Below, piece by piece: positions 14,483-22,968 of a stretch of 64,000 bases of DNA (its first letter is position 1; every line of letters starts with the position of its first letter). The notes below the pieces were generated by a model, which ran no database searches, had not been told where the DNA came from, and saw only the letters and a list, made by a program, of their open reading frames with translations. Location of the stretch: positions 1 to 64,000 of the forward strand of contig CANJMI010000019.1 of NCBI GenBank assembly GCA_947475525.1. The letters run 5' to 3'. The position numbers were made by a program, and so were the translations under genes. This stretch comes from Polyangiaceae bacterium (lineage in GTDB: Bacteria; Myxococcota_A; Polyangia; Polyangiales; Polyangiaceae).

Positions 14483-15307
14483 ATGCGTATCGCCCCATGG
14501 TTACTCGGCTCCGGATTCGTGTCGATCTGGGCGCTCACCGCCTTCAGCTGCAACACGGTCGAGTACGGCGGGTCGAACCTCACGGTGACCTTCACTGCCG
14601 TGACGACGTCGACCGGCGGGGGCGAAGGCGGCGCGTCGACCGACGGCACTGGCGGCACGGGCGGCAGTGGCGGCAGTGGTGGCAGCGGCGGCATGGGCGG
14701 CATGGTGGGTTCCGGTGGCATGAGCGCCGTCGGGACAGGCGGCGCGGGGGGCATGGCCGCATCGTCGTCATCATCATCATCGGGGGCTGGCGGTGCGGGG
14801 GGCTCGGAGCCCGGCCCGGTCGAAAAACCGCTGCATGGTTGCCTCTCCGCTGCGGCCGTCGATCTGACGGGAGCGGGTCCCGCCGTCAGCCTCGCCTTCT
14901 CAGCCGCGAGCAAGCGGTACACCGCGACGGTCAATGGCCAAGCCATCGAGCTTCCATATCCGATGTGCATTCGACTCAAGGCGACGCAGCGGCTCTTGCT
15001 TGGCGGCTCCGGCGTGAAGGGCGATCCTCTGATGGTCGGCGGGGTCGTCGATGGAGACGGCGTTGGCAACTACATGAAGCTGAGTCCGCTCCAACCGAGC
15101 TGCTTCTCGGCGTCGAACGGCTTCGACGCGAACAACGTCCCGGGCTGCTACAACGGCGGCGTCTGGCCCTGCGGCGCATCCGGCGCGAGCTCGGCGGCGC
15201 AGTGCTCGGTCGACGGCCAAAAAGCTTTCAGCGCGATGACGACCTATCCCTTCTTCGACAACAGCCAAAAGCAAACGCGGCTCGGCGCGCTCTACATTGT
15301 TCCTTGA
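14483..15307 (+). CDS. Lipoprotein with Gly-rich linker, paralogue A
   Basis: 274 residues. The signal MRIAPWLLGSGFVSIWALTAFSC ends in a lipobox-like AFSC. A linker of Gly/Ser/Thr/Met (about residues 45-110) follows, then a compact C-terminal domain of about 160 residues with six cysteines, beginning KPLHGCL and ending LGALYIVP. The domain shares GSGVKGDPLM, DGDGV, NNVPGCY and WPCGA with the next gene, so the two are tandem duplicates. No known family recognised. It precedes a beta-helix lipoprotein, suggesting a joint role at the cell surface, possibly in carbohydrate handling. Confidence 0.85.
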   Translation: MRIAPWLLGSGFVSIWALTAFSCNTVEYGGSNLTVTFTAVTTSTGGGEGGASTDGTGGTGGSGGSGGSGGMGGMVGSGGMSAVGTGGAGGMAASSSSSSSGAGGAGGSEPGPVEKPLHGCLSAAAVDLTGAGPAVSLAFSAASKRYTATVNGQAIELPYPMCIRLKATQRLLLGGSGVKGDPLMVGGVVDGDGVGNYMKLSPLQPSCFSASNGFDANNVPGCYNGGVWPCGASGASSAAQCSVDGQKAFSAMTTYPFFDNSQKQTRLGALYIVP

Positions 15308-15431: not shown

Positions 15432-16244
15432 ATGCGCATGGCTCCCTGGCTGCTCAGTTCTGGCGTAGCTTCGATGTGGGCGCTCTCCGCCTTCAGCTGC
15501 AATAAACCCCTCCGTGAGGGGACCAACCTCACGGTGACGTTTTCAGCGATCACCGCCGTCACGGTAGGAACCGGCGGCACCGACGTGACCACCAGCGACG
15601 TCGGCGGCATGGGCGGCATGGGCACCGGCGGCACGGGCGGTATGGGCGGCATGGGCACGGGCGGCATGGGCACGGGCGGCATGGGCACGGGCGGCATGGG
15701 CACGGGCGGCATGGGCACCAGCGTAACGTCGGGTGCGGGCGGCGCGGATCCGGTGCCCGTCGAGACGCCCGTCCACGGCTGTTTTTTCAAGGACGCCTAC
15801 GATCTCACGGGCGGCGGATTGACCGTCAATCTGGCCTTCTCTGCGGGCACCAAGAAGTTCACCGCGACGGTCGGAGGCAACGGTGTGGAGCTGCCTTACC
15901 CGATGTGCGTCAAGATCAAATACAACCAGAAGCTCGTGCTCGGCGGCTCGGGGGTCAAAGGCGACCCGCTGATGGTGAGCGGGCTCATCGACGGCGACGG
16001 CGTCGCCACCTACGACAAGAAGGGCCCGATGCAGCCGACCTGCTTCTCGGCGGCGACCAGCTTCGACCCGAACAACGTCCCGGGCTGCTACCAGGGCGGC
16101 ACCTGGCCGTGTGGCGCGGTCGGCGCCCCAACAGCGGGACAGTGCACACTCGACACCCAGAAGTCGTTCGCGCTGAAGGCTTACCCCTTCTATGACAACA
16201 GCCAGAAAGAGATCCGGCGCGGCGCGCTCTACATCATCCCATGA
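15432..16244 (+). CDS. Lipoprotein with Gly-rich linker, paralogue B
   Basis: 270 residues, clearly homologous to the preceding gene: the signal MRMAPWLLSSGVASMWALSAFSC, a Gly/Met/Thr linker with repeated GTGGM units, then the same Cys-containing domain (PVHGCF, GSGVKGDPLM, DGDGV, NNVPGCY, WPCGA, RGALYIIP). The C-terminal domains match closely, while the linkers have drifted by repeat expansion. Its stop overlaps the start of the beta-helix gene by ATGA, so those two are probably co-translated. Function unknown. Confidence 0.87.
   Translation: MRMAPWLLSSGVASMWALSAFSCNKPLREGTNLTVTFSAITAVTVGTGGTDVTTSDVGGMGGMGTGGTGGMGGMGTGGMGTGGMGTGGMGTGGMGTSVTSGAGGADPVPVETPVHGCFFKDAYDLTGGGLTVNLAFSAGTKKFTATVGGNGVELPYPMCVKIKYNQKLVLGGSGVKGDPLMVSGLIDGDGVATYDKKGPMQPTCFSAATSFDPNNVPGCYQGGTWPCGAVGAPTAGQCTLDTQKSFALKAYPFYDNSQKEIRRGALYIIP
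15651..15719. repeat. In-frame 15-base minisatellite encoding MGTGG units
   Basis: Four exact copies of atgggcacgggcggc (15651-15665, 15666-15680, 15681-15695, 15696-15710) plus a partial fifth, flanked by degenerate versions. Because the unit is 15 bases, gain or loss of copies changes linker length without shifting the frame of paralogue B. Confidence 0.95.
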
Positions 16245-19383: not shown

Positions 19384-20700
19384 TCAGGACGGTGTGCCGA
19401 AACTTCGCGTGAACAACTGCTCTATCGCCGTTCGCCCCGCGGCGGTCAGGCGAATCGTTCCGATACCGGCGAAGTTGGCGCGCTGGATCGTGATGCCGTC
19501 ATCCTGCTCCCAACGCGTCATGTCCCATCGGTACCAACGGCCACGCTCTTGGTCGAACAGCGCCACCGGTTTGCTCCAGAGCCGCGCGAGCTCCGCGCCC
19601 CAACCGGTACCGCCACGCACGGTGCCGTCTTCTTGAAGGGCCCCAATGACGAAGATTTCGTCGGCCTGCATCACCTGGTGCCAAACGGTCTGGAGGATGC
19701 GCTTGATGTTCGGGATGTTGCTAAGCGGACGCTTCAATCGGTGCGACGCGTAGACGAGTGAGAAGTCCCCTTTGGCGAGCTCTTCGTCGGCTAAAATGAC
19801 GAGCCCCTTCTCGCGGAAAAGAAACGGATGCTTCTCGAAGGTGAAGTGAGTCTCCGCGACCCCCCAACGCTCCGCGCATTCCCCGAACGCAGCCTCGGCG
19901 CCTTGCGCACCCCCGGAGTAAAGATGAAAACGCTGCGGGTCACGCCCGAGCGGAAGCTGCAGGGGGAGGCCCGAATCGATCAGTCGCAACGTGGTCGGGT
20001 CGAGCCAGAGCTGCAGCGCGGAGACGTCGGGATTGTCGTGATCCTTCACGAGCTGCAGCCGCACGGAGTCCGCCTCGGCGACCAGCGAGACCACGACTTG
20101 AAGTTCGGACTGGAGGTGCTCGAGCACCTGGGGCAGGCCCGTAGCGGCAGCCGCGTCTCCTTCGGTGCGCGAAGTGAGCCAGACCTCCACTTGATGCTCG
20201 ACCGCCGTCCGCCGGAGTCGGGCCAAGTGCTCGCACGACGCGGACGCGAAGTCGAAGCCGTCGAGAACAATCGTGTGCGGATCGAAGCCGACGGCCTCGC
20301 TGCAAAACGCGACGCTCGAGATCACTTTTTCCAGCACATCATCGAGCGCGTCGACTCCCGAGACGGAGCCGCGCCGCAGGTGGGCCACGATCATTCGATT
20401 GCGCTCGACGTCGAGGCGCACCTGTTGCGGCTGTAGGAGTTGGTAAGCGAGCGCGAGCTCGTGGAAGATCTCGTCGTAGAACGCGCGCACGCGCTCCACC
20501 GGACTCTCGAGGCTGACGTGCAGGACTTTTCGTCCGCGCATGAGATCGTCTAGGGCCACCTGGACGAGGACCGCGGATTTTCCAACGCCCGGCGGCGAGC
20601 AGATCACGCCGAGGTTGCCGAGGCCAAGGCCGCCGTGAATCGAGTGTTCGAACACCCGCATTGGGCTCCGCTCGTTGACCTCTTTTCGGTACATCGTCAT
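19384..20700 (-). CDS. P-loop (RecA/KaiC-like) ATPase fused to a C-terminal SLOG-like Rossmann domain
   Basis: 438 residues. Residues 20-245 look like a RecA/DnaB-type ATPase: Walker A SPPGVGKSA (35-43), a LHVSLES strand, and Walker B TIVLDGFDF (143-151). Residues 255-395 look like a SLOG/YspA-type nucleotide-binding Rossmann fold: YSGGAQGAE (261-269), later DEIFVIGA, the glycine turn RGGTGWGAELA (362-372) and LFDQERGRWYRW (381-392). A short basic, helical tail ends the chain. SLOG domains bind or process nucleotides or nucleotide-derived signals in several contexts. The fusion is unfamiliar to me and its function is unknown. It sits between pfp and EF-G on the same strand. Confidence 0.8.
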   Translation of the reverse strand: MTMYRKEVNERSPMRVFEHSIHGGLGLGNLGVICSPPGVGKSAVLVQVALDDLMRGRKVLHVSLESPVERVRAFYDEIFHELALAYQLLQPQQVRLDVERNRMIVAHLRRGSVSGVDALDDVLEKVISSVAFCSEAVGFDPHTIVLDGFDFASASCEHLARLRRTAVEHQVEVWLTSRTEGDAAAATGLPQVLEHLQSELQVVVSLVAEADSVRLQLVKDHDNPDVSALQLWLDPTTLRLIDSGLPLQLPLGRDPQRFHLYSGGAQGAEAAFGECAERWGVAETHFTFEKHPFLFREKGLVILADEELAKGDFSLVYASHRLKRPLSNIPNIKRILQTVWHQVMQADEIFVIGALQEDGTVRGGTGWGAELARLWSKPVALFDQERGRWYRWDMTRWEQDDGITIQRANFAGIGTIRLTAAGRTAIEQLFTRSFGTPS

Positions 20701-20820: not shown

Positions 20821-22968
20821 TCACTTTTTCCGGCCGGCTTCGAGCTCAGCCTTGTACTCGCTGATGAGCTTCTCCGAGATCGCGTTCGGCACGGGCGAGT
20901 AGCGACAGAATTCCATCGTGAATTCCGCCTTGCCCTGAGTTGCCGAGCGGAGGACCGTCGAGAACCCGAACATCTCGGCGAGCGGCACTTCGGAGTCGAT
21001 GCGGCAGAAGGCTTCACCTTCGGTCGTCCCGAGGATCATGCCGCGACGCTGCATGAGAACGCCGACGACGTTGCCCTGCATTTCGCTTGGACCTTCGACG
21101 GCCACCTTCATGACGGGCTCGAGGATTTGCGGGCCGGCCTTCATGTAGGTGGCTCGCCACGCGCCGCGCGCCGCTTCCTTGAACGCGATGTCCGACGAGT
21201 CGACCTGGTGGGCCGCGCCGTCGTTCAACGTGAGTTGCACGCCGCGAACGGGTGCGCCGATCAACATGCCCTTGCCCATCATCGACTCGAAGCCCTTGTC
21301 GACCGACGGCACGAACTCACGCGGGATGATGCCACCCACGATTTGGTCGAGGAACCGGTAGCCAATGGCCACAAGCTCGCGGTGCTGGCGCTGAGCGCCC
21401 TTCTCCTCCGGCATCGGAACTTCCGGATCGAGTGGCGTCATGGTGCCGCCAACCTTGCCGTACTGACCCGAACCACCCGTCTGCTTCTTGTGCGTGTACT
21501 CGTATTCGACGGAGTTCGTGATCGTCTCGCGGTAAGCAACCGCCGGCGGGCTGACATCGACGAACGCTTGGTATTCGCGCTTCATCCGCTCGATGTAGAC
21601 GTCGAGATGGAGCTCGCCCATGCCGCGGACGATGACCTCGCCCGTCTCCTCGTCGGTGTTGACGCGGAAGGTGGGGTCCTCCTTGGTGAAGCGGCGGAGC
21701 GCCTTGCCCATGTTGATCTGGGACTTATTGTCCTTCGGCGTGATCGTGAGCGAAATGACGGGATCCGGTACGTGCATCGACGTCATGGTGACGTTGAGCT
21801 CGCCGTCGGTGAAGGTGTCACCCGTGTTGCAGTCGACGCCGAAGATCGCGATGATGTCGCCAGCGGCGGTCGCTTGGATGTCTTCCATCTCGTCGGAGTG
21901 CATGCGGACAAGCCGGCCGACCTTGTGGCGCTTCGTCGTGCGGACGTTCGTGATCTCGTCGCCTTTGCTCAGCTTGCCCTGGTAGACGCGCAGATAGGTG
22001 AGCTGACCAAAGCGGCCGTCTTCGAGCTTGAACGCGAGGAGCACGAGCGGCTTTGCGGCCGTGCTCTCGAGGGTCAGGCGCTCGCTTTCGTTGGCGACCT
22101 GGATCGCCTCGTTCACGATGTCCGTCGGGCACGGCAAGTAACGCTCGACCGCGTCGAGGAGTGGCTGAACGGCCTTGTTCGCGTAGGCGGAGCCCATCAT
22201 CACGGGGACGATGTGGCGGCCGATGGTTGCCTCGCGGATGGCCTTGTCGATGATCTCGGTCGTCACCTTCTCATCGAGCATCGCCTCGGTCAGCTCGTCG
22301 GAGTGCATCGACAGCGCGTCGAGCATGGCCTCGCGGGCGGCCTTCGCCTCGTCCATCATTTCGGCGGGGATTTCGGCATCGGTGATCGTCTCGCCGTTCT
22401 CGCCAGAGAAGGTGAGCCCGCGCATGCGGACGAGGTCGACGACGCCCTTGAACTCGTGCTCGAGGCCGATCGGTAGTTGGATGAGGACCGGGTTGACGCG
22501 CAGCTTCTCGCGAAGTTGGTCACGGACGCGGAGCGGGTTTGCGCCGGCACGATCGCACTTGTTGACGAAGGCGATACGCGGAACGCCGTAACGGCGCATC
22601 TGGCGGTCGACGGTCAGCGACTGAGACTGCACGCCGGCGACCGAGCAGAGCACGAGGATCGCCCCGTCAAGGACGCGCATCGCGCGCTCGACCTCGATCG
22701 TAAAGTCGACGTGGCCGGGGGTGTCGATGATGTTGATGTGGGTATTGCCCCACTCGCAGAACGTGGCGGCGGATTGAATGGTGATGCCGCGCTCGCGCTC
22801 GAGATCCATCGAGTCCATCTTCGCGCCGACGCCGTCCTTGCCTTTGACGTCGTGAATCGCGTGGATGCGCTTCGTGTAGAAGAGGATGCGCTCCGTCAAC
22901 GTCGTCTTACCCGAGTCGATGTGCGCGCTGATCCCGATGTTCCGAATGCGTGAAATTTCCTGGCTCAT
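20821..22968 (-). CDS. fusA: Elongation factor G, mitochondrial EFG1 / spdEFG1 type
   Basis: 715 residues. G1 is AHIDSGKTT (15-23), with DTPGH and NKCD further on. The stretch between them, [29 protein letters not shown], is characteristic of mitochondrial EFG1 and of the spdEFG1 set known from spirochaetes, planctomycetes and delta-proteobacteria, rather than classical EF-G (motif split: [14 protein letters not shown], then [12 protein letters not shown]). In those lineages this form does translocation and a second paralogue handles ribosome recycling. It stands outside any str operon here, divergent from nadA. Confidence 0.95.

Follow-up and report, generated by a model that had tools for sequence, protein, structure and literature searches.

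The window, by which we mean the whole 64,000-nucleotide stretch of DNA analysed, carries on its minus strand an open reading frame of 438 codons with an ATG start (positions 19384..20700), whose product consists of an ATP-binding domain of the RecA type, a linker and a permuted SLOG domain, as recognised from homologues and their alignment. The gene upstream of it, fusA2 (20821..22968, minus strand), encodes spdEFG1, an EF-G of the mitochondrial type, and the linkage of the pair is conserved. Full-length homologues of the 438-aa protein were found at 38-74% identity in many genomes of the same genus, family and phylum, and the alignment of 73 fused sequences has 30 invariant columns, mostly in the C-terminal half. 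Judged by this conservation, the frame is a genuine conserved protein and not a chance frame.

An earlier note on this DNA had interpreted the frame as a RecA/KaiC-type ATPase joined to a SLOG-fold domain, an interpretation that is partly supported when taken as a whole. Every motif it cited (SPPGVGKS, TIVLDGFD, SGGAQGAE, RGGTGWGAE and LFDQERGRWY) is found in the frame, and the predicted structures of both halves bear out the two folds. The claim of a fusion proved both correct and informative, with the two halves being encoded by separate genes in 21 of the 190 Myxococcota genomes surveyed.

Two other features of the window may be recorded here. Adjacent open reading frames on one strand, at 14483-15307 and 15432-16244, are clear paralogues (MRIAPWLLGSGF.. 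and MRMAPWLLSSGV..) that look secreted and have a Gly/Met-rich repeat in each N-terminal third. A long NadA-like gene (quinolinate synthase, PF02445; 22984-24492, 502 aa) is divergent from spdEFG1, so that an NAD gene stands beside the SLOG/EF-G pair.

The ATP-binding half

Residues 12-244 (19969..20667, minus strand) have an ATP-binding RecA-type fold of the RecA/DnaB/KaiC kind. Among Pfam families, AAA_25 matched at an E-value of 2e-6, slightly above the cut-off and in the N-terminal half only. An AlphaFold2 model built with 73 homologues reached a mean pLDDT of 90.7, and structure comparison of this half returned DnaB (Z 21.0), KaiC (about 20) and RadA (about 20); the T4 gp41 helicase, including the entry of its E227Q mutant, was aligned by profile search. 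Residues 244-251 (19948..19971, minus strand) are disordered in the model (pLDDT below 50) and form a flexible linker between halves that are separate genes in other genomes.

Conserved sites were compared in 104 sequences, comprising the 73 fused proteins and 31 stand-alone ATPases. In the Walker A motif, SPPGVGKS (residues 35-42; 20575..20598, minus strand), G38 and G40 are invariant, and K41 and S/T42 are each present in 103 of the 104. The Walker B strand, TIVLDGFD (residues 143-150; 20251..20274, minus strand), has D or E at position 147 throughout (104/104). The position of the catalytic glutamate (E227 of T4 gp41) holds E in 18/73 fused proteins and 2/31 ATPase-only proteins; it is E65 in the window protein and varies among G, E, R and D across its family. 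Since the Walker motifs are conserved and the catalytic glutamate is variable, the comparison points to a switch that binds ATP, or to a slow timer, and away from a motor, and the description of the protein as ATP-driven has become doubtful.

The fold and the Walker A and B motifs are shared with the RecA-superfamily ATPases DnaB/gp41, KaiC and RadA, whereas the window family differs from them in its variable catalytic glutamate, its single domain and four residues, H61, Y75, R102 and W174, which are invariant in all 104 sequences and private to this ATPase family. Membership in the KaiC family failed, as the protein has a single ATPase domain that scored 16.4 bits with the Pfam KaiC ATPase model against a cut-off of 26.6. 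We read the N-terminal half, on these sequence grounds, as a separate ATP-binding family. In one homologue (loci L011/L128 of G004, a Baikal MAG), a SAPSDERPSQRS/SAPSDERQSQRS repeat run interrupts the ATPase domain midway, at the variable loop after residue 105.

A circularly permuted SLOG domain

Residues 258-437 (19390..19929, minus strand) have a permuted SLOG fold, not the plain YspA-type fold that had been proposed. When this domain was modelled alone by AlphaFold2, with phage relatives in the alignment, the pLDDT was 94.9, and the best solved structure was 3imk (Z 14.2, rmsd 3.1, 142 of 158 residues), followed by DprA at Z 6.4. A member of Pfam cpYpsA matches 3imk at an E-value of 4e-34, which identifies that structure, from Syntrophus aciditrophicus, as a circularly permuted YpsA-type SLOG protein. 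The alignment with 3imk spans residues 1-182 in order, so the two domains have the same permuted order of elements. The outcomes that would have contradicted a SLOG assignment, namely the lack of this fold or an unrelated known domain in the C-terminal half, did not occur.

The AGxGxR strand that opens ordinary SLOG domains closes the domains of the window type, where it reads FAGIGT (residues 410-415; 19456..19473, minus strand) and has G412 and G414 invariant among the 73 fused proteins; phage relatives likewise end in FAGIGTR or AGVGSR. Moving the tail to the front raised the score of the window sequence against the canonical profile from 26.9 to 28.4 bits, which is no gain over the shuffled control (28.4), and so the evidence for permutation in the window protein is structural. 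Two phage relatives gained from the same rotation, one scoring 49.2 bits instead of 39.0 (its shuffled control reached 36.8) and the other 64.8 instead of 61.3.

The ligand-loop motif SGGAQGAE (residues 262-269; 19894..19917, minus strand) has G267 and E269 invariant and S262 nearly so in the fused proteins, and its glycine-rich loop ends in the GxD/E signature reported for YpsA (PMC6459960). In the second loop motif, GGTGWGAEL (residues 363-371; 19588..19614, minus strand), G363 to W367, E370 and L371 are invariant among the fused proteins, and the GGT-W part recurs in phage relatives.

Sequence libraries were largely silent on this half. A match was obtained to phrog_768, a phage 'DprA-like' family (E 2e-5), and nothing useful was returned by NCBIfam, PADLOC or Pfam, in the last of which no match was above threshold. 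With the cpYpsA model (PF12694, cut-off 26.2 bits) the window protein had no match and the phage relatives scored 11.8-15.3 bits, and a weak probability of 30% came from comparing its profile with that of three cpYpsA sequences. D5_N and phosphoribosyl-ATP matches were discarded as short, sub-threshold chance matches. A structure search with the full-length model was uninformative on the C-terminal half, as ATPase matches filled the list, and Foldseek alone gave nothing below an E-value of 0.001 for the C-terminal model, with 3imk still first; structure comparison was decisive for the assignment. Since the Pfam model is not reached, the domain represents, on the evidence of the structural model, an undescribed family that is sister to cpYpsA and lies outside PF12694. 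Both families have an SGGxxGxD/E start, a GG[TS]-x-LAR-x-KP middle and an AGxR end, but the window domain lies below the Pfam cut-off, has a longer middle region with GGTGW and FDQ-x-W motifs, varies between E and D in its first loop across the family, and is fused or linked to an ATPase.

The domain shares the SLOG superfamily and the GxD/E motif with YpsA of Bacillus subtilis, for whose clade NAD or ADP-ribose has been proposed as ligand (PMC6459960), and with the SLOG proteins of conflict systems. It differs from them in being permuted, in having spdEFG1 as partner and in a setting that is neither defence nor cell division: PADLOC gave a single weak match (E 0.007), and the neighbours are EF-G and metabolic genes.

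The permuted domain was also found standing alone in large phages and within very long proteins, in crAss-like phages among others. The phage 'DprA-like' proteins (phrog_768 and gp133 of Agrobacterium phage Atu_ph07) share domain and motifs with the window protein, and gp133 is likewise permuted; in contrast to the window protein, these relatives lack the ATPase and have Q at the E370 position of GGTGWxxE. The Atu_ph07 gene adjoins genes for an NAD synthase and a dNMP kinase, a neighbourhood that fits a nucleotide-type ligand for the domain. On several viral contigs (L186, L188, L191 and L199-L207) the domain is embedded in open frames of about 1,400-3,500 aa. Further carriers are an annotated virion RNA polymerase in Klebsiella phage Pylas and a giant protein of a crAss-like phage. 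No copy was found on plasmids in the plasmid search. Around bacterial genes encoding only the SLOG domain, no conserved neighbour was convincing; a sulfotransferase-like family was nearby in 5 of 15 loci.

The neighbouring EF-G is spdEFG1

The bacterial spdEFG1 group is related to mitochondrial EF-G1 (PMC3150367, PMC4342817) and is defined by a KDG insertion in switch I (PMC3150367). The window EF-G carries this insertion in the sequence VKGKDGVG (KDG at 22831..22839, minus strand), and human mitochondrial EF-G1 is its best match in the PDB, scoring 746 bits where the best bacterial EF-G reaches 639. Among 125 spdEFG1 sequences, 106 have the exact KDG and 19 do not, many of the latter having KDN, KDE, KDQ or KEG; such variants occur in proteins classed as spdEFG1 by similarity at L048 and other loci of split genomes. 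The window genome encodes two full-length EF-Gs and no third. The other one lies between rpsG and tuf, in the str operon, and has bacterial EF-Gs as its best matches. By these sequence comparisons the window EF-G is spdEFG1, located outside the str operon, and is not the housekeeping copy. Co-occurrence with spdEFG2 in the event of a missing EF-G I was not found, as the window genome retains EF-G I. One genome, G077, has two spdEFG1 copies (C14:4464-6542 and C128:517-2589), 61 and 63% identical to that of the window, with the ATPase gene behind only one.

Linkage and distribution

The fused gene directly follows spdEFG1 on the same strand in all 79 testable named loci; the median distance between the two genes is 14 bases, and nine loci show an overlap of 4 bases. 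Gaps are longer in the genus of the window, with 120 bases in the window itself and up to 321. For the phylum survey, the ATPase, the SLOG domain and spdEFG1 were sought separately in 190 Myxococcota genomes, each at least 90% complete; the analysis of linkage as a whole covered Myxococcota and Acidobacteriota. The ATPase was found in 73 Myxococcota genomes, in 72 of which spdEFG1 was detected. It lies immediately downstream of spdEFG1 on the same strand in 70 of the 73, a count made up of 69 adjacent in the survey and G290, where the EF-G is cut by a contig end and adjacency was shown individually. The three remaining genomes belong to one genus, g148, in which the fused gene has been relocated (L272-L274 and L276); a D-3-phosphoglycerate-dehydrogenase-like gene lies beside it in two of these. 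In the second phylum, that of L145 and labelled Acidobacteriota, 95 of 247 genomes matched, many weakly, and spdEFG1 precedes the ATPase gene at 19 of the 20 ATPase-only loci examined. The genes flanking the pair otherwise vary between genomes.

Conversely, 118 of the 190 Myxococcota genomes have spdEFG1, and 46 of these lack the ATPase, so spdEFG1 can do its basic work without the partner. In 20 genomes without an ATPase match, no diverged ATPase was found after spdEFG1, the genes there being varied. These counts also bear on how the setting of the gene had been described. The placing of the gene among housekeeping and not defence genes is upheld, but pfp adjoins the gene in only 3 of 80 loci, a linkage confined to the genus level, and the EF-G is not the housekeeping copy; of the two neighbours for which conservation across Myxococcota had been envisaged, it is EF-G that is retained, in two phyla. 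Nor can the protein be called a core regulator, as its ATPase is present in 73 of the 190 near-complete genomes.

Fused and split forms

Fused and split forms of the protein interchange among Myxococcota. The SLOG domain was found in 67 of the 190 genomes: 40 have it fused, 21 have it as a separate gene alongside the ATPase (two of the 21, G235 and G279, being contig-edge fragments), and in 6 no ATPase was detected with it. Of the genomes that lack a fusion, 21 have both halves, 12 and 6 have a single one and 111 have neither (Fisher p 3e-12, uncorrected for phylogeny). Together with those from the second phylum, these counts tie the ATPase half to spdEFG1, and to the ATPase in turn the SLOG half. 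In split genomes the SLOG gene lies away from spdEFG1 and the ATPase stays beside it, and 12 of the 73 ATPase genomes have no detectable SLOG domain; the ATPase therefore probably does not depend on the SLOG half for its action. On the spdEFG1 tree the ATPase-only state is basal, and all fused forms fall in one clade (support 0.97) with later losses. A single fusion event is likely from this tree, in which near relatives of the window are over-represented.

Discussion

Our main reading, to which we give a probability of about 0.5 on the basis of gene order, motifs and models, is that spdEFG1 has in this protein a dedicated partner, encoded in the same operon and acting as a nucleotide-sensing, ATP-dependent switch. 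The SLOG half would bind a small nucleotide-type ligand, perhaps derived from NAD or ADP-ribose as suggested for YpsA-type SLOG proteins, and ligand occupancy together with the ATP/ADP state would decide whether the ATP-binding half engages spdEFG1 or its ribosome. The second translocase might in this way be turned on or off by nucleotide status while the EF-G of the str operon maintains housekeeping translation. More tentatively, the pair may represent a new translation-control system, in which a nucleotide-sensing, ATP-binding switch controls a mitochondrial-type EF-G.

The SLOG half could instead be an enzyme, a nucleotide- or NAD-processing base hydrolase of the LOG/YpsA type, which would produce a signal or clear away a toxic nucleotide under the control of the ATP-binding half. 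SLOG proteins have been reported as sensors or as nucleotide-processing enzymes (PMC6459960), and the domain also occurs alone in bacteria and phages. Both acidic residues, E269 and E370, are invariant in the bacterial fused proteins, and the spacing of GGTGWxxE corresponds to that of the LOG motif PGGxGTxxE. However, the Q of phage relatives at the E370 position indicates that the acid is not generally required by users of this fold, and an enzyme whose product did not affect translation would leave the linkage to EF-G without explanation. We regard an enzyme as unlikely.

Simple co-transcription with spdEFG1, with a function elsewhere, would accommodate the retention of the relocated gene in g148 and the many spdEFG1 genes without an ATPase. 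It would hardly account for the order and strand kept with spdEFG1 in both phyla (70/73 and 19/20) despite differing flanks, or for the departure of the SLOG gene from split loci where the ATPase remains at spdEFG1, and we judge a passive neighbour to be distinctly improbable.

Little probability, likewise, attaches to a helper in ribosome recycling or rescue, whose ATPase would provide a step missing on ribosomes carrying spdEFG1. This idea takes as its premise that spdEFG1 of Borrelia and of mitochondria translocates without recycling; translocation and recycling are split between spdEFG1/mtEFG1 and spdEFG2/mtEFG2 (PMC4342817, PMC3150367), and the window genome has spdEFG1 and no third full-length EF-G. 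Yet the normal EF-G of the str operon is present and able to recycle, the protein bears no likeness to known recycling ATPases, and its catalytic glutamate is variable. Mitochondrial EF-G1 is itself a reported target of argyrin, which counts against a self-protection or antibiotic-response module, the least probable of these alternatives: although argyrins are EF-G inhibitors made by myxobacteria (PMC3438169) to which a second EF-G with a regulator might give tolerance, the pair extends through many lineages and a second phylum, well beyond known producers, and biosynthetic genes are absent from the flanks examined.

The switch acting on spdEFG1 is our preferred reading. Each fold is known, but the SLOG family, the ATPase family and their pairing with spdEFG1 are undescribed in the libraries and open papers searched, to which extent the earlier note's description of the protein as undescribed holds. 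Nothing relevant on an EF-G/KaiC operon was found in the open papers, and in those searched there is no prior description of a dedicated ATPase/SLOG partner for spdEFG1 or mitochondrial EF-G1. We know of no equivalent partner in mitochondria.

Why many bacteria retain a second EF-G beside the essential copy is an open question. Through the pair conserved in Myxococcota and Acidobacteriota, the mitochondrial-type EF-G is linked to a partner that binds nucleotides, and this question becomes testable. If our reading is true, the EF-G lineage ancestral to mitochondrial EF-G1 would have in this protein its first dedicated regulator, and the permuted SLOG family shared with phages would gain its first functional setting.
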